A DNA stretch of 35,182 bases from Vicinamibacteria bacterium. Lineage in GTDB: Bacteria; Acidobacteriota; Vicinamibacteria; Marinacidobacterales; SMYC01. The stretch is taken from positions 1 to 35,182 of the forward strand of contig DASPGQ010000103.1 in NCBI GenBank assembly GCA_035620555.1. The letters run 5' to 3'. The position numbers and the translations under genes were made by a program. Of this stretch, positions 1,349 to 15,575 are shown in pieces (position 1 is the stretch's first letter; the number at the start of each line of letters is the position of its first letter). Under the pieces are notes generated by a model. The model saw nothing but the letters and a program-made list of their open reading frames with translations. It did no database searches and was not told the DNA's origin.

Positions 1349-3172
1349 TCATTGCGCGGTCTTGACCTCGGTCCAGAGACGGTCGTACAAAAGGGTCGCC
1401 TGCCCGATGTCGTGAATGAGCTCCACCCGCTCGAGCACGTCGTCTCCGGGGAAAATCGCAGGGTTCGTCCGAACGGGCTCGGGCAATAGGCGTCGCGCCG
1501 CTTGGTTGGGGGAGCTGTACTGCATCGTGGCGCAGATCTCCGCGGCAATCTCCGCCTCCAGGGTGAAGTCGATGAAGGCATGGGCGAGCTCGGGATTCCG
1601 AGCCGATGATGGAATCACCAGGCTGTCGATGAAGAGACTCCCGCCTTCTTCGGGAATCACGTAGGCAATGTCCGGGTCGATATCCATCACCCGGGCGAAC
1701 TGGCCGTTCCAGCCGTGGGCGATCCAGACGTCGCCCGCGAGAAGGACGTCCTGGAAGTTGGCCGAATCGTAAGCTTTCACCAGCCGCTTCTGTCTCAGCA
1801 GAAGCTCTTGCGCCATTCGAAGCGTGGCTTCATCGGTTGTGTTGAGACTGAAGCCCCTCCACTTCAGCGCGGCTCCGAAGGTCTCGCGAGGATCGTCCAG
1901 CATCAAGATACGTTCGGCGTAGCGCTCGTCCCAGAGCGATTCCCAGGACTCCACCAACCCCACGCGGCTCTTTCGGTAGGCGATCCCCGCCGTCCCCCAG
2001 AAGTAGGGAACGGAGTAGCGGTTCCCCGGATCGTATTCCGGGTCCAGAAAGCGGGGGTCTAGATTCACGAGGTTTGGAAGCGCCGAGTGATCCAGGGGAA
2101 GCAGCAGGTTCTGTTTCTTCAGGATTTCGACGCCATAGTTGGTGGGACAGAGGACATCGTAGTCGATGTTCCCCGCCTGAACTTTCGCCAACAGAGCCTC
2201 GACGCTGTCGTAGAGATCCACGTTGACTCGCGCACCGTAACGATCTTCGAACTTCTTCAGGGTCTCGGGGGCGATGTAGTTCGACCAGATGTAGACGTTC
2301 AGGATCTTGTCGGAATCGGGGCGAGGCGGCACCAGAGCGAATGGCAGCGCGAGGATGCCGAGACCGGCGGCGGCGGGAATGGCCGCCTTCCAGAGCCTGA
2401 CGCCATGCTCGATCCACCACGAGGCGAGAAGAATGAGCGCCGTCGCCGTCAGGAGAACCGTGGACACGGCGTTGATCTCGGGAGAGACCCCGCTACGGAC
2501 CATGGAATAGACCTGGATTGGCAGCGTGGTCGAGCCGACGCCGGCGACGAAAGATGTGATGACGTAATCGTCGATGGACAAAGCGAACACGAGAAGAGCC
2601 GCTGCCAGCACTCCGGGCGCGATATTGGGGAGAGTGACCATGAAAAAAGTACGTCCCGGAGACGCCCCAAGATCCATCGCCGCCTCCTCGAGGGCGCGGT
2701 TGAGACCGGCGAGACGTGCCCGAACAACCAGGACCACGTAAGAGACCGAGAATGCAACGTGGGCGAAGATCACGGAGGCGAACCCGAGACGGATCCCGAG
2801 GGCGGCGAAGAGAAGAAGGAGGGACGAGGCCATCACGATCTCGGGAACGACGATGGGGAGGGTGACGAGTGCTCGAAAGGAAGCCTGTCTCCGGAAACGG
2901 TGGCGATGAAGAGCTAGCGCGGCTGCGGTGCCGGCCACCGTCGAAAGGACCGTGGCGGCGAGAGCCACGATGAGACTGTTTCGAAGCGATCTGAGGACCG
3001 CGGTGTCAGCGAGAAGTTTGGCGTACCACTGAAGCGTGAACCCCTCCCAGGCAGAGGTCAACCTACCTCGATTGAAGGAGAACGCCGCCAGGACTGCGAG
3101 AGGAGCGTAAAGAAACGAGTAGACGGCGAGACTTCCGAGACCCAGGGTGCGGGAGGTAAGATGCCTTCGCAT
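1349..3172 (-). CDS. PotC-PotD fusion: polyamine-type ABC permease joined to its substrate-binding protein
   Basis: 607 residues. Residues 1-260 are a PotC-like permease with six predicted helices and the EAA loop (EEAAMDLGASPGRTFFMVTLPN, about 162-183). Residues 263-283 form an additional hydrophobic segment (AAIPAAAGLGILALPFALVP). Residues 289-607 are a complete PotD-like binding protein: NVYIWSNYIAPE, PTNYGVEILKK, DDPRETF, GWNGQ, FIDSLVIP and QYSSPNQAARRLL line up with the polyamine-contacting segments of E. coli PotD as I remember them (W34/Y37, Y85, D168/E171, W229, D257, Y293). The W255 position reads F and the Q327 position is not conserved, so the exact substrate is open. The extra helix would carry the binding domain to the periplasmic side, replacing a signal peptide. 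Start is ATG; the gene is last in the operon, 147 bp after potB. Confidence 0.9.
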   Translation of the reverse strand: MRRHLTSRTLGLGSLAVYSFLYAPLAVLAAFSFNRGRLTSAWEGFTLQWYAKLLADTAVLRSLRNSLIVALAATVLSTVAGTAAALALHRHRFRRQASFRALVTLPIVVPEIVMASSLLLLFAALGIRLGFASVIFAHVAFSVSYVVLVVRARLAGLNRALEEAAMDLGASPGRTFFMVTLPNIAPGVLAAALLVFALSIDDYVITSFVAGVGSTTLPIQVYSMVRSGVSPEINAVSTVLLTATALILLASWWIEHGVRLWKAAIPAAAGLGILALPFALVPPRPDSDKILNVYIWSNYIAPETLKKFEDRYGARVNVDLYDSVEALLAKVQAGNIDYDVLCPTNYGVEILKKQNLLLPLDHSALPNLVNLDPRFLDPEYDPGNRYSVPYFWGTAGIAYRKSRVGLVESWESLWDERYAERILMLDDPRETFGAALKWRGFSLNTTDEATLRMAQELLLRQKRLVKAYDSANFQDVLLAGDVWIAHGWNGQFARVMDIDPDIAYVIPEEGGSLFIDSLVIPSSARNPELAHAFIDFTLEAEIAAEICATMQYSSPNQAARRLLPEPVRTNPAIFPGDDVLERVELIHDIGQATLLYDRLWTEVKTAQ

Positions 3173-6638: not shown

Positions 6639-6715
6639 GATCGCACTGCGTCACGACTTCCTGGGCCCCTCCCTCGTTGCTCGGCGAGTTCCGAGCCGCG
6701 TTAGACTGGCTCGAC

Positions 6716-7663
6716 ATGTCTCAGACTCTGGTGCACTCCCACCGCGGCACCAACGCGCTCCACACCTTGCTGCTGCTCGCGTGCATGGGCCTCCTGATGC
6801 TCGTCCTGGGTTACGCCCTTGCCGGCAGAGGCGGAGCCGCCGTCGCGGCGGGCTTCGGTGTCTTCGCCCTCTGGGTGAGTCCGCGCATCGCACCGAACGT
6901 CATCATGCGGCTCTACGGAGCGCGTGCTCTCTACCCGGGGGAGCTGCCGGCACTCGAGAACGTCCTGGCGGCACTGACGCAGCGCTCGGGATTGGCTTCG
7001 GTGCCGCGCCTGTACTACGTGCCCTCGCAGGTGATGAACGCCTTCACCGTGGGCGATCGGGAACGAGCGGCCATTGGCGTCACCGACGGGTTACTGAGAG
7101 CGCTGAATCTCCGCGAGCTCACTGGCGTACTGGCTCACGAGGTCAGTCATCTGCGAAACAACGACCTCCGGGTGATGACGCTGGCGGACATGGTGAGCCG
7201 GATGACGACGAGCCTCTCGTTCGTGGGGCAGCTTCTGTTGCTGATCAACCTGCCCCTGCTTCTTATGGGTCGCGTCACTGTGCCGTGGCTTCTCGTGTTA
7301 CTGCTGCTCGCCGCTCCAAGCCTGGCGACCCTGCTCCAGCTCGCGCTTTCCCGGACGCGAGAGCACGACGCCGATATCGGCGCTTACGAGCTTACTGGCG
7401 ATGCCCGCGGGCTCGCTTCGGCCTTGGCGAAGATGGAGCGCTACCAGAGGCGCTTCCTGGATCTCGTGGTTCCCGGGCGCAAGATTCCCGACCCGTCTCT
7501 GCTGCGAACGCATCCTAACGCCGAAGAGCGCATCGAAAGGTTGCTCCGCTTGGAGGGCGCTCCGCCCGAGCCCGTCCCCGAAACCGTGAGACTTGCCGTT
7601 CCCGTCCGTTTCCCGAGGGTCGAGCACGGACCTCGCTGGCATTGGACAGGCCTGTGGTATTGA
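6716..7663 (+). CDS. M48 family membrane zinc metalloprotease (HtpX-like)
   Basis: 315 residues from the ATG at 6716; a TTG at 6677 would add 13 residues with no better signal. Two membrane helices lie near the N-terminus (about 15-35 and 40-55) and two more at about 165-205. The zinc site HEVSH is at about 141-145, and the third ligand is the Glu of SRTREHDAD (about 216), both hallmarks of M48/HtpX. The SHLRNNDLRVMT segment after the active site is also typical. HtpX proteins degrade misfolded inner-membrane proteins with the active site on the cytoplasmic side. It is transcribed divergently from the transport operon and convergent with the phosphatase gene (13 nt between stops). It carries a C-terminal tail rich in Pro and Arg with no recognisable domain. 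Confidence 0.9.
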   Translation: MSQTLVHSHRGTNALHTLLLLACMGLLMLVLGYALAGRGGAAVAAGFGVFALWVSPRIAPNVIMRLYGARALYPGELPALENVLAALTQRSGLASVPRLYYVPSQVMNAFTVGDRERAAIGVTDGLLRALNLRELTGVLAHEVSHLRNNDLRVMTLADMVSRMTTSLSFVGQLLLLINLPLLLMGRVTVPWLLVLLLLAAPSLATLLQLALSRTREHDADIGAYELTGDARGLASALAKMERYQRRFLDLVVPGRKIPDPSLLRTHPNAEERIERLLRLEGAPPEPVPETVRLAVPVRFPRVEHGPRWHWTGLWY

Positions 7664-7676
7664 TGGCCCGAGGCTC

Positions 7677-10600
7677 TCAGGGAGCCACGACGCAAGAGCC
7701 CGTGCCCGTGTCGGTGAAAGTGCTTCCCGCCACGGGGACGAACTCCCATTCGTAGCTCGTCGGATGAAGCGTCAACTTCAAAACCCCGTGTGAATCCCGG
7801 TAACGGACTTCGCTGTTCGGCTCGATGGTCGCGAACTCATAGAGGGAGGCACCTCCGGTGCCGACGACAAACTGACGGATGCCGCGGGTCCCGTCCAGAT
7901 TCCCATTCGAGTCCTGAGGTGCGAAGCGCTCGTAGTCGTGATCGTGGGCGGTCAGGACCACATCGGCACCGGCTTGATAGAGCATGTCGAACAGGTCCAC
8001 GGCGGCGGCAGCGTTGCCATGGGGGCCGGAGCTGAATCGTGGATGATGCCAATAGGCGAGGGTGCAGGTGCTCGGGTTCGCCGCCAGGTCGGCCTGCAAC
8101 CATTGTCCCTGAGGCGACCCGGGCCCACAACCACCCACATCAGAGCAATTGCTGTTGAGAGCGATGATGTGCCACGACCCCAGGTCGTAGCTGTAGTAGC
8201 CCTCTTCCGGATTGCCCGCGGCGGCGCCGAAGTAGACGAAATAAGCGGATGCACCCGGAGTGTGGTAATCGTGATTCCCCGTCGAAGGGCGCGTCCGCCA
8301 TTTGTGACGCCCCCAGGTCGGGTCGTAGCAGTTGGTGAATTCCTGCGCCGTGCCATCGGGGTAGACGTGATCACCAAATGTGACCACGGTGCCGGAAATG
8401 CCGTCGAGAAGCGCGGCCGTCGCCTCGTCGTTCTGAGAGCTGCAGGTAGCGATGTCTCCGGCTCCCACGACCACGATCCCTCCCGGAGACACCGTCAGCA
8501 CAGCCTGATCGAAAGCCGTGAGGCCATCCGTGTCGATCGCTGTCGCGCTAACGATGTGCGTGCCCTCCGAAAGATCGAAGCGGACAAAAGCGCCTCCCGT
8601 TCCGATGACACCGTCGAGATTGGACTCCCACGTTAGACCGGACGTCAGGTCCCCGTCCTCGGGGTCGGTTGCGCCACCGGAGAAGACAATGTGTTCTCCT
8701 GTTTCGAACGTCGCTCCATTCACGGGAGTGGTGATCGTTACCTGGGGTGGGTTGTTCTCGAGAATTCCCGTGTATTCGACATGCAAGAGCGGTGCGCCGC
8801 TCGGAAGGCCGTCGTAGGCCTCCGCCGTGCGTCTACCCGTGCCGGTGATGATGACCGACAGGGCGTTTCCACTCGACCAGCCGGGCCGGCTCACGATCTC
8901 CTGTATCACGGGAGTGAGATTAGGAGTTCGCTGGCCTGACCCCGCCTCGCCCGCGGTCGTCCACGCCGGTGCGGTCCAAAGGACCGAGGCTAACGTCCGT
9001 GGTCTCGTGGATACCTCACCGCTGGACGCGACGAACGCAAAGGAATGATCAGCCGATTCGCCCTCGATGAGAAGAAGCGTCGGAGCGCTGCCCGTTTCAT
9101 CGGTTTGAAATTGAATGTAAGCATTCGAGATGGCGGCATCCCGAGGGAGGTCGACCCCGTCGAAGCGAATCCCGACCGTCTGGGTAGATGCTTCCTCGAC
9201 GAGCTCGAGATCGCTGCTGGTGAGCCGAACGATGCCGCTCTGATCCTCTTCGGCGTCGTCCGAGCTCGATACAACTCGGGCCTGGACGATCGTCGCCGCC
9301 GGATCGCCCACGGACAGGTTGACCGAGGCCTCTCCCATCAGGCCCTCGCCATCCACGGCGGAGGCGGTGATCGTGTGACTCCCCGATGAAAGCGTGGTCG
9401 TCGAGATCGAGCCGCCCATGCCTAGGCTGCCGTCCCGATCGGACTCCCAAACGAGGCTCGCGGTAAGGTCCCCATCCTCCAAGTCGCTTGCCGTCGCGGA
9501 GAAGTCCACGTTCTCGCCGAAATCGAAGCTTGCCCCGTCGACCGGCAGAGTGATGGCCACCGTCGGCGGCGTATTGTTCACCGTCACGATGATTTGATCC
9601 GAGCCGGTAAGCCCCTCGCTATCCGTCACCGACGCGGCAATCGTGTGCTGGCCGAGAGAGAGCGCGGAATGGCTGAACGAGCCCCCGGTTCCGATCTCTC
9701 CATCGACGTTCGAGGTCCAGGAGAGTGCGGCGGTGAGGTCCCCGTCCTCCACATCGCTAGCCGTCCCCGAGAAATCGACGTTCTCGTCGAAATCGAAGCT
9801 CGCCCCGTCCACCGGCAGAGCGATGGCCACCGTCGGCGGTGTGTTGTTGACCGTCAAGATGAGTTGATCCGAGCCGATAAGTCCTTCGCTGTCGATAACC
9901 AAAGCGGTAATCGTGTGCTGGCCGAGTGAGAGCGCGGCATGGGTGAACGAGCCGCCCGCCCCGATCTCTCCATCGACGTCCGAGGTCCAGGAGAGTGCGG
10001 CGGTGAGGTCCCCATCCTCTAAATCGCTCGCTGTCCCCGAGAAAAAGATGGCCTCGCCGAAATCGAAGCTCGCGCCGCTCGCAGGTGAAGTGATGCTCAC
10101 ACCGGGTGGTGTGCTGGTGAACACCTGCAGCGTGATTTGGTCGGTTGCGGTGAGCCCCACGCTATCCGTCACCGAGGCGGTGATCGTGTGCGGGCCAGGA
10201 GAAAGCAGGCTCGTGATGAAAGACCCCCCGGAACCGACGCTACCGTCCAAGTCCGAGATCCAGGTGAGGCTGGCGGTGAGATCGCCGTCCTCGGGGTCGC
10301 TTGCCGTACCGGCAAAATCGATCGCCGTCCCGAGCTCGAAACTCGACCCTCCGGAAGGTGACATGATGCTCACGCTCGGGGGCGTGTCGTGCACCGTGAT
10401 CGTGATCTGATCCGATCCGACGAGTCCTCCGTCGTCAGAGGCTCGGGCCGTGACCCGATGCAGTCCCGAGGACAGACCCGTTACCGAAATGGCCCTGCCC
10501 GATCCGATGCTTCCGTCCCGGTCCGACACCCATGACAGATTGGGACTGAGATCGCCGTCTTCCTCGTCCGTGGCAACGCCCACGAAATCGACCGGCACGC

Positions 10601-12617
10601 CGGGACCAAAGCTTGATCCATCGGCGGGCGCATCGATCGAGACGAGCGGCAACGCGTCGACGGTGCATGCCGGGTCGAGCTGCATCGTGACCCACGCGCC
10701 GCTTCCCACGGAGAAACCGTTCTCGATGATGATGCGACTGCCGGCGCGGAAGACCACGGAGCCGGGGTCCATGATGTGGAAATCCGGACCCAGGACGATC
10801 GTGTCGCAGGCGAGGTAGAAGCGATTGTCGGTCACTAGATCGCTCGTCAGTACGCGATCGGTGAACAGGAGGCTCTGGTAACTCACGTGAAGCGAGGGAG
10901 CGTTCATCGGATCGCCGTCGTGGGCCCGCGCCATCCTCGTGCCGGTGCCGGTGACGATCAGAGACAACGAATGGCCACTCTCCCAACCGGGCCGGGAAAC
11001 GATCTCCTCGAGAACGGAGGCGATATCCGGCGTACGCTGATCGATGCCGGCCTCGCCCATCGCCAGCCAATCGGGTGGAGACCAGGAAACCGCGGCGCTG
11101 GTTCGCGGCCGCGACGACACGTTTGCGCCCGACGAGCTGAACGTAGAGGCATCATCGACCGCCTCTCCCTCGATGGTGAGTGAACCTGGCCCGGTGCTGA
11201 TTCCGCTCGCCTGAAACTGAACGTAGGCTTCGGAAACGTTCGCGCCTCGAGGAATCCCGACCTGCGGAAAACGTAAGCCGACCGTTTGGGGCGTGCCACT
11301 GGCCTGGTCGTGCACCAGATCCAGGTCGAAGCTGCCGAGGGCCACGCTTCCGGTTGCCGACTCCTCGGCGTCGTCGGACGATGACGCGACGCTCGCTTCG
11401 ACCAACGTCGTTTCGCCCGCGGTCGCGGTCACGGTGATGGTGATCAGGGCGACACCACTCAGGCCCCCCGAGTTCGTTGCCGAGGAGCTGATCTCGTGGG
11501 TGCCCGCCGAGAGCGTCGTCGTGGAGAAAGAGCCCCCGGTTCCCACGAGACCGTCACGGTCCGAGGTCCAAGTGAGACTTCCAGTGAGGTCGCCGTCCTC
11601 GAGGTCGTTCGCTGCGCCCACGAAGCTCACTGGCTCGCCAACCATCAATACCGCGCCGGCGGAAGGCGAGCTGATGGTCGTCGCCGGTGGTTGACGAGGC
11701 TCGATGCAATCCCCCCTGCCCGAGTCGGTAAACGACATGCCGGCGATGGGAACGAAATCCCACTCATACGAGGTCGCGTGTAACGTCAGCTTCAAAACAC
11801 CGTGCGTGTCGGAGTTTCTCACCTCGCTGTTCGGCAGTACGCTCGCGAACGGTTGAAGCGGTGCCCCCCCGGTCCCGACGACGAACTGGCGAATCCCGTG
11901 AGCCAGATCGAGCGTTCCATCGGGATCTTGAGGGGCGAATCGTTCGTAGTCGTGGTCGTGGCCGTTCAAGACTACGTCGGCACCGGCGTCGTAGAGGATC
12001 TGAAAGAGATCACCGGCCGAGGCCGAGCTTCCCTCGGCGCCCGAGCTGAATCGGGCGTGATGCCAGTAGGCGAGCGAACAGGTGCTGGGGTTCGAAGCGA
12101 GGTCAGCCTGCAGCCACTGCCCCTGAGGGGAATCGGCGTCGCAGCCTCCGACTTCGAGACAGTTACTGTTGAGAACGATGATATGCCAGCTTCCCAGGTC
12201 GTAGCTGTAGTAGCCTTCTCCGGAATTGCCGGCCAGGTCGCCGAAATAGCCGAAGTAGCCTGACGCGCCCGCCGTGCTGTAGTCGTGATCGCCCGCCGAG
12301 GGGCGCGTGCGGTCTTTGTGCTGCCCCCAGCTCGGATCGTAACAACTCGCAAATTTCTGGGCCGTGGCGTTCGGATAGGCATGGTCGCCGAGGGTGAACA
12401 CCGTGCCCGGAATGCCGTCCAGAAGCGCCGCCGTCTGGTCGTCGTTTTGAGGACCGCAACCGGCAATATCGCCGGCACCGACCAGGACGATCGGATCGGG
12501 GTCGACCTCCGCGGAAGAGTCCGGGACGGTCGCGAGCGAAAGCGGTAAGGCCAGAATCCAAGAGCCGCTAGAGCGTTTCCAACCAAAGATGCCAGTCGTC
12601 GCGGTGCGAAAACGCAT
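7677..12617 (-). CDS. Giant exported protein with two metallophosphatase domains and Ig-like repeats
   Basis: 1646 residues from the ATG at 12617, which has a GGGGG stretch just ahead; a TTG at 12638 is the alternative. A signal-peptide-like segment (WILALPLSLATVPDSSA) is at about 20-37. Domain order: purple-acid-phosphatase-like metallophosphatase (about 40-300), Ig-like repeat (310-397), beta-sandwich domain with the SSSDDAEE start (403-580), a short Cys-containing linker module (583-651), five Ig-like repeats of about 90 residues (656-1104), a second SSSDDAEE sandwich (1106-1283), a seventh Ig-like repeat (1287-1374) and a second metallophosphatase (about 1377-1646). Visible motifs are GDHAYP, GDHDY and GHDHDYERF in the first head, and GDHVYP, GNHDY and AHDHDYERF in the second. 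A cell-surface or secreted phosphoesterase is likely; no anchor motif is seen at the C-terminus. Confidence 0.9.
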   Translation of the reverse strand: MRFRTATTGIFGWKRSSGSWILALPLSLATVPDSSAEVDPDPIVLVGAGDIAGCGPQNDDQTAALLDGIPGTVFTLGDHAYPNATAQKFASCYDPSWGQHKDRTRPSAGDHDYSTAGASGYFGYFGDLAGNSGEGYYSYDLGSWHIIVLNSNCLEVGGCDADSPQGQWLQADLASNPSTCSLAYWHHARFSSGAEGSSASAGDLFQILYDAGADVVLNGHDHDYERFAPQDPDGTLDLAHGIRQFVVGTGGAPLQPFASVLPNSEVRNSDTHGVLKLTLHATSYEWDFVPIAGMSFTDSGRGDCIEPRQPPATTISSPSAGAVLMVGEPVSFVGAANDLEDGDLTGSLTWTSDRDGLVGTGGSFSTTTLSAGTHEISSSATNSGGLSGVALITITVTATAGETTLVEASVASSSDDAEESATGSVALGSFDLDLVHDQASGTPQTVGLRFPQVGIPRGANVSEAYVQFQASGISTGPGSLTIEGEAVDDASTFSSSGANVSSRPRTSAAVSWSPPDWLAMGEAGIDQRTPDIASVLEEIVSRPGWESGHSLSLIVTGTGTRMARAHDGDPMNAPSLHVSYQSLLFTDRVLTSDLVTDNRFYLACDTIVLGPDFHIMDPGSVVFRAGSRIIIENGFSVGSGAWVTMQLDPACTVDALPLVSIDAPADGSSFGPGVPVDFVGVATDEEDGDLSPNLSWVSDRDGSIGSGRAISVTGLSSGLHRVTARASDDGGLVGSDQITITVHDTPPSVSIMSPSGGSSFELGTAIDFAGTASDPEDGDLTASLTWISDLDGSVGSGGSFITSLLSPGPHTITASVTDSVGLTATDQITLQVFTSTPPGVSITSPASGASFDFGEAIFFSGTASDLEDGDLTAALSWTSDVDGEIGAGGSFTHAALSLGQHTITALVIDSEGLIGSDQLILTVNNTPPTVAIALPVDGASFDFDENVDFSGTASDVEDGDLTAALSWTSNVDGEIGTGGSFSHSALSLGQHTIAASVTDSEGLTGSDQIIVTVNNTPPTVAITLPVDGASFDFGENVDFSATASDLEDGDLTASLVWESDRDGSLGMGGSISTTTLSSGSHTITASAVDGEGLMGEASVNLSVGDPAATIVQARVVSSSDDAEEDQSGIVRLTSSDLELVEEASTQTVGIRFDGVDLPRDAAISNAYIQFQTDETGSAPTLLLIEGESADHSFAFVASSGEVSTRPRTLASVLWTAPAWTTAGEAGSGQRTPNLTPVIQEIVSRPGWSSGNALSVIITGTGRRTAEAYDGLPSGAPLLHVEYTGILENNPPQVTITTPVNGATFETGEHIVFSGGATDPEDGDLTSGLTWESNLDGVIGTGGAFVRFDLSEGTHIVSATAIDTDGLTAFDQAVLTVSPGGIVVVGAGDIATCSSQNDEATAALLDGISGTVVTFGDHVYPDGTAQEFTNCYDPTWGRHKWRTRPSTGNHDYHTPGASAYFVYFGAAAGNPEEGYYSYDLGSWHIIALNSNCSDVGGCGPGSPQGQWLQADLAANPSTCTLAYWHHPRFSSGPHGNAAAAVDLFDMLYQAGADVVLTAHDHDYERFAPQDSNGNLDGTRGIRQFVVGTGGASLYEFATIEPNSEVRYRDSHGVLKLTLHPTSYEWEFVPVAGSTFTDTGTGSCVVAP
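9550..10090 (-). repeat. 270-bp tandem repeat units within the phosphatase gene
   Basis: The segment encoding Ig-like repeats 4-6 is repetitive at DNA level with a 270-bp (90-codon) period. For example gtgtgctggccgag recurs at 9643 and 9913, and gagagtgcggcggtgaggtcccc recurs with the same spacing. The high identity points to recent duplication or recombination-driven homogenisation of the repeats. Confidence 0.8.
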
Positions 12618-12898
12618 GTCCCCCAAATCCCGATGCAATCGTTGGGGGATGGACCAACGTCTGGCGAACGAGAGCTCAAGGGTGGCTAGCTCGGTCTCGC
12701 AGGATTAGCGCTGAAAGAAGGTGCGCTGTCTGCAACCCAACCCGCTATGCCCCCGAACCCGGTCGGACCGCTTCAGACAGGAAAAATTGTAGCACACTCT
12801 CGGCGAATGCCGTCCTCCCCAAATGCGTCGCTCTACCGGGCCTCCCATCATTTGCGCGGTCGACAGCGGAATTGCTAGCCTTCAGAGGAGCTGGAGCC
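12618..12898. other. Divergent intergenic region, phosphatase gene / metal-uptake genes
   Basis: 281 bp between two divergent genes. I see a possible -10 (TACAAT, minus strand, near 12784-12789) for the phosphatase gene but no convincing -35. No known riboswitch, Zur box or terminator could be recognised by eye. The minus-strand leader would be about 160 nt, long enough for an RNA regulatory element. Confidence 0.4.
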
Positions 12899-13180
12899 AT
12901 GAGCCTTCTTGATCGGTTCCGTAGGTCGGCGAGGTCGCTCGCCCTGGCCATGGGGCTCGCCAGCTTGCTCGTCGGGCTCATTGGGCTCGCGCCACACGAG
13001 GACGGGGACGGAAGAACGTGCCTCGTCTGCAAAGTGCGGCAGGAACCGTTCGAGGCGCACTCGGCCGAAGCGGTCCTGGGAGGGCCGCCGCTGCGGGCGA
13101 CCGATGCCCCCGTTCTGGGCGTATCCGCTCCGCGGCCAATCGTCTTCGACGCGAGTTCTCCTCGCGCACCTCCCGCCTAG
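12899..13180 (+). CDS. Small exported Cys/His protein upstream of TonB receptor
   Basis: 93 residues from the ATG at 12899, which has a good AGAGGAG site 8 nt ahead. One hydrophobic segment (about 12-30, SLALAMGLASLLVGLIGLA) acts as signal or anchor. It is followed by a potential metal-binding stretch, PHEDGDGRTCLVCKVRQEPFEAHS, with a CxxC pair and flanking His/Asp/Glu. The layout (short, one helix, His then CxxC, then low-complexity tail) resembles DUF2946-like proteins that often precede TonB receptors for metals, but I cannot confirm the family. It lies 73 nt before the receptor gene on the same strand and is probably cotranscribed; a periplasmic metal-handling role is inferred from this. 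Confidence 0.72.
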   Translation: MSLLDRFRRSARSLALAMGLASLLVGLIGLAPHEDGDGRTCLVCKVRQEPFEAHSAEAVLGGPPLRATDAPVLGVSAPRPIVFDASSPRAPPA

Positions 13181-13253
13181 CTTCGAACCGACCCTCGTGG
13201 ACGAGGGTTCCGTACATTCAAGCTGGGTTTTTCGTTATCAAGGGAGGACTCCA

Positions 13254-15575
13254 TTGAAACCGTTTATTCGTATCGGTCCATCATTCTCGGTCGCTCTCAC
13301 GTTTTTCGTCTCGTTGGCAAAGGCGCAGGAAACGGGCTCGGTGAGCGGCACCGTTACCCTTGCGGCGACGGGCGATCCCGTCCACGGCGCAATCGTGCTC
13401 GTCATCGGGTTGGGAGAATTCACGACGACCGACAGCGAGGGGCACTTCCGCTTCGACCACATCCCCGCGGGCACTCATTATCTCCTCGTTCAGCGCGAGC
13501 ATCTCACCGCGGAGAGACAGCAAATCATCGTGACGCCAGAACAGAACCTGGAAGTCGAATTCGCACTTGGGCTCTCGCCGATTCACGAGAATGTCACCGT
13601 CACCACGAGCGCTCGAGGGGAAGCCACGGCATTGGAGCAGTTCAATGCGGTGACCACCCTCGATTCCTTCGAGCTGTCGAAGGACATGTGGGGAAGCCTC
13701 GGTGAGGTCCTGCAAAACGAGGCGGGAGTCGCGAAACGGAGTTTCGGACCGGCTTCGAGCCGCCCCATCATCCGCGGCTTCGATGGCGACCGTGTCCTCA
13801 TCATGGAGGACGGCATTCGCACGGGAGATCTCTCGAGCCAATCCGCGGATCATGGCGTGACGATCGATCCGGCGAACCTGGAGCGGATCGAGATCATCAA
13901 GGGACCGGCCACTCTGCTTTACGGCTCGAACGCCGTGGGAGGCGTGGTGAATACCATCACGCCTCACGATAGCTTCCGGCGCTCTCAGCCCCAGGGTATG
14001 AGAGGACAGGTCGTGCTCGACGCCGGTAGCGCCAACGATCAGCTCGGTGGGAACGCGAACCTCCGTTACGGAAACGGAGGCTGGATGTTCTGGGGGAGCG
14101 GGGGCGCGCGTCGAACCGGCGACTATGACACGCCCGGGGGCAGGATCGAGAACTCCGCATCCGAGCTGGCGAACGGCAGCGCCGGGGCCGGTTTCTATGG
14201 CGATCGCGCGTTCATCAGCCTGGGATATGGAATCGAGGACGGGCGGTTCGGGATCCCGGGAGCCGGCGAGCTGCACGGCCACGAGGGAGAAGAAGGAGAG
14301 CATGCGGGAGAGGAGGCATTCTTCGTCGATAGCTCGCCGCGGCGACAAAACGTTCGCTTCGACGTCGGATTGAGCGAGCTCGACAGCGCCTTTCTCGATT
14401 CGACACGCGTGACCTTCCAGTACACCGACTGGAACCACGACGAGATCGAGATCGCCGACGGAATCGAGGCCGTCGCGACCTCTTTCATGAACGATGTCTA
14501 TCTTCTCCGTGCGGAGCTCGAGCAACGGCGGAGCGCCAGGCTCTCGGGCCGCTTCGGCCTCTGGTTTCAGAACCGGGACTACGAGGTGATCGGAGAAGAA
14601 GCGCTGGCGCCGCGCACGAAGCAGAATGCTTTCGCCGGCTTCGCCTACGAAGAGCTCACTCTGGGATCGGCGACGACGCTCTCCTTCGGCGGGCGGGTCG
14701 AGTACAACGACTATGACCCCGCGGCGCGGGAGGGCGGGCAGGATACCAACTCGCACGAGGGCGAAGTGCCGGTTGCCGGACACGAGGACGAGCCGCCAGA
14801 AAGCATCGCTCGATCGTTCACGGGATTGTCGGGCTCGGTCGGGTTGCGCCACGACCTCACGAGCTCCGCCGCCTTGGTGGGAAATTTCACGAGCTCGTAC
14901 CGAGCTCCGGCTCTCGAGGAGCTCTACAACTTTGGCCCTCACGTGGGGAATCTCGCATTCGAGATCGGCGATCCCAACCTCGGCCGCGAGCGCATCAACG
15001 GCATCGACCTCGCCCTTCGCGGACGTTCGAGCGGTCTCGATACCGACGTCAACTTCTTCTATTACGACATCGGAAACTTCGTCTATCCGGCCTTCCAGGA
15101 GGAGATCGTGAACGGACTGCGCCTGGCGGAGTACCGGCAGGACGACGCGCGATTCGTCGGCTTCGACGCACAAGCGAATCTTCGCGTCACCCATTTCCTG
15201 TGGATCAAAGCGGGCTTCGGCTACGTCGACGCGAAGTTGACGGATATCGCCGAGTACGTGCCCCGTATTCCTCCATTCCACGGCCGGGTAGAGATCGAGA
15301 TTCCGTACGAAGCTTTCACGATCACGCCAGAGATCATCTGGTCGGCCAGGCAGGACAGGATCTTCGGGACGGGCGAGACTCCCACCGACGGCTACATTGT
15401 GCTGAATCTCAAAGCGCATTACACGCTGGCGCGGACCCACCAGGCGCACATCTTTTCCGTGAATGCGTATAATTTGACCGACGAGCTCTACCGGATGCAC
15501 ACGAACTTCATCAAGGATTTCGCGCCTGAGATCGGCAGGGGAGTCAAGTTCACGTACTCCCTGCGGCTCTTCTAG
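13254..15575 (+). CDS. TonB-dependent outer-membrane receptor with His-rich loops (ZnuD-like)
   Basis: 773 residues starting at a TTG (13254) with a strong GGGAGGA site 6 nt upstream; the frame stays open further upstream but lacks signals there. A signal peptide (about 1-25, ending AKAQ) is followed by a carboxypeptidase-regulatory-like domain (about 26-105, SGTVTLAATGDPVHGAIV, GHFRFDHIPAGTH). Next is the plug (about 110-240, RPIIRGFDGDRVLIMEDGIR, RIEIIKGPATLLYGSNAVGGVVN) and a beta-barrel ending in the aromatic C-terminus YSLRLF. Two acidic His-rich stretches sit in predicted extracellular loops: LHGHEGEEGEHAGEE (about 340-354) and HEGEVPVAGHEDEP (about 501-514). Such loops are known in ZnuD-type zinc receptors. 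Zinc or another transition metal is the most likely substrate. Confidence 0.9.
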   Translation: MKPFIRIGPSFSVALTFFVSLAKAQETGSVSGTVTLAATGDPVHGAIVLVIGLGEFTTTDSEGHFRFDHIPAGTHYLLVQREHLTAERQQIIVTPEQNLEVEFALGLSPIHENVTVTTSARGEATALEQFNAVTTLDSFELSKDMWGSLGEVLQNEAGVAKRSFGPASSRPIIRGFDGDRVLIMEDGIRTGDLSSQSADHGVTIDPANLERIEIIKGPATLLYGSNAVGGVVNTITPHDSFRRSQPQGMRGQVVLDAGSANDQLGGNANLRYGNGGWMFWGSGGARRTGDYDTPGGRIENSASELANGSAGAGFYGDRAFISLGYGIEDGRFGIPGAGELHGHEGEEGEHAGEEAFFVDSSPRRQNVRFDVGLSELDSAFLDSTRVTFQYTDWNHDEIEIADGIEAVATSFMNDVYLLRAELEQRRSARLSGRFGLWFQNRDYEVIGEEALAPRTKQNAFAGFAYEELTLGSATTLSFGGRVEYNDYDPAAREGGQDTNSHEGEVPVAGHEDEPPESIARSFTGLSGSVGLRHDLTSSAALVGNFTSSYRAPALEELYNFGPHVGNLAFEIGDPNLGRERINGIDLALRGRSSGLDTDVNFFYYDIGNFVYPAFQEEIVNGLRLAEYRQDDARFVGFDAQANLRVTHFLWIKAGFGYVDAKLTDIAEYVPRIPPFHGRVEIEIPYEAFTITPEIIWSARQDRIFGTGETPTDGYIVLNLKAHYTLARTHQAHIFSVNAYNLTDELYRMHTNFIKDFAPEIGRGVKFTYSLRLF

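Follow-up and report, generated by a model that had tools for sequence, protein, structure and literature searches.

A two-headed purple acid phosphatase-like protein of a Vicinamibacteria bacterium with an Asn-to-Asp change at a predicted metal ligand of one head

Organization of the two-headed gene and its surroundings

The window, i.e., the whole stretch of 35,182 nucleotides from a Vicinamibacteria bacterium that was analysed, contains a gene whose product carries at each end a head resembling purple acid phosphatases (PAPs) (Table 1; N-head and C-head below). The presence of a metallophosphatase domain at both ends of this protein had been noticed in an earlier sequence-only reading, and it holds: both heads match PF00149 (28.4 and 24.0 bits) above the cut-off of 21.5 bits taken as the criterion for calcineurin-like metallophosphoesterases, and they are 73% identical to each other (191/263 residues, E = 9e-146; 72% at the DNA level). 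The four motifs quoted in that reading are all found in the protein. The polypeptide runs in the order leader, head, Ig, S1, coathanger-like strip, five Ig, S2, Ig, head. The mirrored order of phosphatase, Ig-like and sandwich domains described earlier is thereby retained; the earlier description gave neither the strand nor the coathanger-like strip, nor did it give the number of Big_7 Ig-like domains, of which Pfam finds seven. The leader is probably a Sec signal peptide.

Table 1. Features of the two-headed gene and of the segment preceding it (positions are those of the window)
Feature	Residues	Position	Strand	Basis or remark
Gene of two-headed PAP-like protein	1646 aa	7677..12617	minus	Start codon (ATG) at 12617, stop codon at 7677
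Leader with hydrophobic stretch SWILALPLSLATVPDSSAEV	1-38	12504..12617	minus	Sequence reading; homologous to leader of C25
N-terminal PAP-like head (N-head)	43-305	11703..12491	minus	PF00149; AF2 pLDDT 95.9; PAPs are best PDB fold matches
GDHDY of N-head	109-113	12279..12293	minus	Asn to Asp at predicted M(II) ligand; motif reading and head alignments
GHDHDYERF of N-head	219-227	11937..11963	minus	Canonical; motif reading
Ig-like (Big_7) domain 1	309-399	11421..11693	minus	Pfam
Sandwich domain S1	402-580	10878..11414	minus	No Pfam match
Coathanger-like strip	590-652	10662..10850	minus	Weak GCX_COOH match, E 0.069
Five Ig-like (Big_7) repeats	656-1105	9303..10652	minus	Pfam
Sandwich domain S2	1108-1282	8772..9296	minus	54% identical to S1, 72% to S domain of C25
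Ig-like domain 7	1290-1376	8490..8750	minus	Pfam
C-terminal PAP-like head (C-head)	1379-1646	7680..8483	minus	PF00149; 8/8 scored active-site residues canonical
GNHDY of C-head	1447-1451	8265..8279	minus	Canonical; motif reading
AHDHDYERF of C-head	1557-1565	7923..7949	minus	Gly to Ala beside ligands; motif reading and head alignment
Upstream segment TGTGCTACAAT...GAAGCGGTCCGAC		12733..12800	minus	Common only to two-headed gene and paralogue C25

Two paralogues are encoded in the same genome. The C25 paralogue is a 928-aa frame with a single, C-terminal head (GNHDY and AHDHDYER) that is 80-82% identical to the C-head. The C565 paralogue, a 1566-aa frame (locus L113, G000:C565, positions 9344-14041 of its contig), differs in its N-terminal half, which is repeat-like; behind this half lie a degenerate head (GTNEY, GNDQIYER) and then one Ig domain. 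The coathanger-like strip is also found in both paralogues, and the sandwich domain of about 175 residues is conserved in four copies across the three proteins. Pfam and PDB sequence searches with the sandwich domain returned no match, and its AF2 model is poor (pLDDT 58.8); the Foldseek neighbours of this model, a TGF-beta prodomain and a chondroitin-binding CBM, are a hint only.

Downstream of the two-headed gene and convergent with it lies an M48 peptidase gene (6677-7663, plus strand), and a gene of a TonB-dependent receptor with a CarboxypepD_reg domain (about 12909-15575, plus strand), which may be co-regulated with it, is located upstream in divergent orientation. Further genes of the window encode a set of ABC transporter components, a carrier of the MatC-like kind and a MacB-like permease; one ABC gene (1349-3172, minus strand) encodes an inner-membrane permease fused to a solute-binding protein and is adjoined by separate permease and ATPase genes. 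No hint of a specific substrate was found among the genes neighbouring the phosphatase gene in the window.

It is extremely unlikely that the arrangement arose through an assembly error which fused two genes, or that the Asn codon was altered by a base error. The genome is a draft of 835 contigs, and an exact repeat of 33 bp within the Ig stretch might in principle have led to a misjoin, but this repeat, the longest exact one in the gene, is located in the Ig array and not in the heads. The two halves of the gene agree in codon usage (r 0.93) and in G+C, and multi-headed relatives exist in many genomes. The misjoining of two genes, which the sequence-only reading had named as a threat to its own interpretation, is further made unlikely by C25, which has a homologous promoter region, leader and C-terminal half as well as a sandwich-domain remnant.

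Active-site residues of the two heads

PAPs are the best matches of the heads among PDB chains, with wheat and kidney-bean PAPs found in profile searches at E values from 5e-14 to 3e-13. The structure prediction proposed in the sequence-only reading was run for the N-head with an alignment of 54 sequences (A1) and gave a PAP-like fold (pTM 0.94), whose top Foldseek matches are wheat, lupin, human and kidney-bean PAPs (E 9e-16). As their best sequence and fold relatives among solved structures are PAPs, the heads are classed as PAP-like.

From kidney-bean PAP, we take the Fe site to consist of two Asp residues, a Tyr and the second His of GHxH, and the M(II) site to consist of the bridging Asp, the GNH Asn, a conserved His in the fourth motif and the first of the two GHxH His residues; the His of GNH is catalytic. 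In the fourth motif, it is the first and not the second His of a WHH pair that is conserved (101/102 heads). A head was called canonical when all eight scored residues (Fe site, M(II) site and catalytic His) were present. By this measure the C-head is canonical, with every metal ligand of the five motifs, including the Tyr of GDxxY, in place. The N-head has seven of the eight residues and so does not possess the full PAP ligand set: its sole change is that of the GNH Asn to Asp, which is predicted to touch the divalent-metal site and leaves the other seven scored residues as they are. The Asn of GN(H/E) is normally a metal ligand, as had been stated in the sequence-only reading and as is supported for the superfamily (PMC4334965; the PAP motif is given as GNH[D/E] in PMC12999176), and it is therefore fair to infer, as that reading did, that the N-head may differ in metal use or activity.

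The frequency of this change was assessed in a head set assembled from 79 loci of a collection of genome contigs, from relatives, from whole-phylum draws and from stretches around multi-headed places. Among 228 full-length heads, the GNH Asn column holds Asn in 198, Asp in seven and other residues in 23; among the first 102 aligned heads, Asp was seen once, in the N-head of the window. Only the N-head and L152, a single-headed frame of another genome, combine Asp with otherwise intact ligands. In the single-headed L162 and L164, both M(II)-site motifs are changed (GDHD and GDQH, with Asp replacing the first His of GHxH); these two are 0.07 apart in the tree, which means that the double change has been retained in at least two genomes. 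The other Asp-bearing heads, L217 head 1, L209 (frame 4797) and L215, have lost several ligands. The GDHD heads of intact sequence (the N-head, L152 and L162/L164) occupy three separate positions in the tree. Many single-headed GDHD homologues with full activity, which the sequence-only reading had named as counter-evidence, were not found: GDHD does occur in single-headed frames (L152, L162/L164), but rarely.

The same reading counted the change of Gly to Ala in the GHxH motif of the C-head among the altered motifs, and a functional meaning of this change is not supported. The Gly is not a ligand, and Ala or Ser takes its place in nine fully canonical heads, among them the C-head itself, that of C25 and some from single-headed proteins, so that loss of function through this change was rejected.

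Duplications in the history of the gene

In the head tree, the N-head, the C-head and the head of C25 form one group (support 0.978), away from the heads of multi-headed Gemmatimonadota proteins, and the C-head and C25 are placed together within it (0.951). By this grouping, the two heads are duplicates that arose within their own lineage, which upholds one part of the internal duplication proposed earlier. The other part, duplication of a single block, was rejected: the domain order is mirrored, and S1 and S2, at 54% identity as against 73% for the heads, are either older or faster-diverging than the heads, so that one block duplication fails to explain the layout.

The relation to C25 extends beyond the heads. 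When the leaders of the two-headed protein and C25 were aligned, none of 2000 shuffles was better, and the same holds (0/2000 shuffles) for a sandwich-domain remnant of 14 residues in C25. The upstream DNA of the two genes is 76% identical over 70 bp (E 5e-8), and the core of this segment is matched in the genome, with up to 3 mismatches allowed, only in front of these two genes. The upstream element was therefore rejected as a regulon site and is better regarded as a trace of a whole-gene duplication that would have included the promoter region. The history is most simply read as a duplication of the head giving rise to the two-headed gene, after which the whole gene was duplicated and C25 lost its N-head. 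It is unlikely that C25 is instead the ancestral, single-headed form and that the N-head was inserted behind the signal peptide of the window gene. Proteins with a single head do predominate, and the single-headed C565 also has a sandwich domain in front of the coathanger-like strip, but the N-head branches outside the pair of C-head and C25, which makes the head duplication older than the split of that pair, and the insertion would require a donor that is now lost.

The dN/dS ratio between the N-head and C-head is about 0.10, a rough mean over both branches since dS is saturated at 1.76. The N-head is thus not simply decaying, and the ratio is still compatible with a recent relaxation in one of the heads.

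Multi-headed relatives and the roles of the heads

The search for other proteins with phosphatase domains at both ends, suggested in the sequence-only reading, showed that the multi-headed arrangement is not unique to the window protein: the genomes of some Gemmatimonadota commonly encode 2-4 heads in one frame. No other multi-headed protein was found among 297 sampled genomes of the window's own phylum, and no paper on multi-headed or pseudo PAPs of Gemmatimonadota was found in the literature collection searched. Some Gemmatimonadota genomes (G543:C132 with L209, G561:C28 with L201, G440:C140 with L206, and G406:C46 with L215-L217) encode roughly ten PAP-like heads or even more, many of them in adjacent multi-headed genes, and one frame in these PAP-rich genomes carries four heads in 1585 aa.

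Exactly one canonical head is present in 17 of 23 distinct multi-headed proteins (the window's included), none in six and two in none; the window protein, with 7/8 and 8/8 scored residues in its heads, fits the class with one intact head. This pattern is drawn mostly from a small number of Gemmatimonadota lineages. Their extra heads have degenerated much further than the N-head and mostly lack two or more ligands, often those of the Fe site. Of the full-length heads, 147/176 are canonical in single-headed frames and 17/52 in frames with several heads (Fisher p 9e-12, a value that ignores relatedness and overstates independence, with some frames ending at contig ends). Between orthologous heads of one triple-headed lineage, dN/dS is 0.05-0.19 for degenerate and 0.10-0.18 for canonical heads, which means that these extra heads are not decaying but are under purifying selection.

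We give an even chance to the following account. The protein would be a secreted PAP-like phosphohydrolase, probably bound to a surface or polymer, with the Ig/sandwich stalk keeping its two heads apart. The C-head, in which no ligand of the Fe(III)-M(II) centre is missing, would be the main catalyst. The N-head, a product of the lineage duplication that keeps the fold and most scored residues, would be expected to hold two metals as before, but its M(II) site would carry one more negative charge and would lack the Asn amide that can contact the substrate phosphate. For these two reasons the N-head is predicted to work more slowly or to show another metal or redox behaviour, and its retained role may lie in attenuated or retuned catalysis, in substrate binding or in partner binding. 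The closest precedent found for the replacement of Asn by Asp is human PP1 N124D, changed at the same position, which is still assayable with an unchanged pKa of 7.2 and is more inhibited by H2O2 (PMC4741303). Replacement by Ala is strongly damaging in two superfamily members: N110A lowers the catalytic efficiency of one of them 30-250 fold (PMC4334965), and Rv0805 N97A was described as catalytically inactive (PMC3776917).

Asp can, however, coordinate metal as well as Asn does, and the N-head might then be fully active. Both heads would then work, the change being nearly neutral or tuning substrate or pH preference, and two heads would provide avidity or a double dose. We consider this somewhat unlikely. 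The intactness of the other scored residues, the low dN/dS, the existence of L152 with the same GDHD and its remaining ligands in place, and the measurable activity of PP1 N124D all agree with it, but the conservation of the Asn across the full-length heads, the lack of a second complete head in any of the multi-headed proteins and the strong damage caused by Ala in two superfamily members argue the other way.

At the opposite extreme, the N-head would be a pseudoenzyme serving solely as a binding or structural module. Plasmodium GAP50 and Vps29, which are among the structural neighbours of the N-head model found with Foldseek, are regarded as modules of this sort, and clearly degenerate heads do occur in multi-headed relatives, where those tested are under purifying selection. 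Nevertheless, the N-head has only one changed ligand, and Asp remains a residue of ligand type, whereas the degenerate relatives have mostly lost more than one ligand, so we regard a pseudoenzyme as quite improbable and keep to an attenuated or retuned N-head. A broader proposal, which we advance only as a tentative possibility, is that multi-headed secreted PAP-like proteins are recurrent and have evolved repeatedly, with one head as the catalyst and the others selected as metal-altered or metal-free partners for substrate binding or allostery; the window protein would be an early, minimal case in which the roles were split by the Asn-to-Asp change.

If these proposals are true, a single fold offers a natural series that starts with an intact binuclear centre, passes through the exchange of one ligand and ends with heads that are fully degenerate yet conserved, in chains that mostly retain one intact head. 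The window genome supplies a natural control in C25, which has a leader, stalk and C-head like those of the two-headed protein and no N-head. With the series and this control, the purpose of a non-catalytic or retuned second head becomes directly testable.

Among known systems, metallocarboxypeptidase D offers an analogy only: it has repeated catalytic domains in one chain with one predicted to be inactive (PMC5683605), but its fold and chemistry are unrelated to those of PAP-like heads. The PAPs themselves (wheat phytase 6git/6giz, kidney bean 1kbp, mammalian PAP/TRAP) share with the heads the five motifs GD, GDxxY, GNH(D/E), H and GHxH, including the Fe-binding Tyr, and are their top sequence, profile and fold matches; the heads are about 20% identical to them, lack the plant N-terminal PAP domain and sit on an Ig/sandwich stalk, and the N-head has Asp in place of the GNH Asn. 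Mycobacterial MmpE (Rv2577) is likewise a PAP-like phosphatase that is secreted by bacteria; it has the motifs GNHX and GHXH, and its activity is reduced by H348A/N359A, but it has one catalytic domain and another architecture (PMC12999176). The single-headed PAP-like metallophosphoesterases of Chloroflexota, Acidobacteriota, Gemmatimonadota, Rubrobacter and others (most of L007-L085) show 56-67% identity over the whole head and differ in having one head per protein and in keeping GNH nearly always. The multi-headed proteins of Gemmatimonadota (L074, L077, L080, L201, L206, L209 and others) resemble the window protein in having 2-4 heads per chain, at most one of them intact and often parted by Ig/PKD-like repeats, and differ from it in their other stalk domains, their more degenerate extra heads and their separate place in the head tree.
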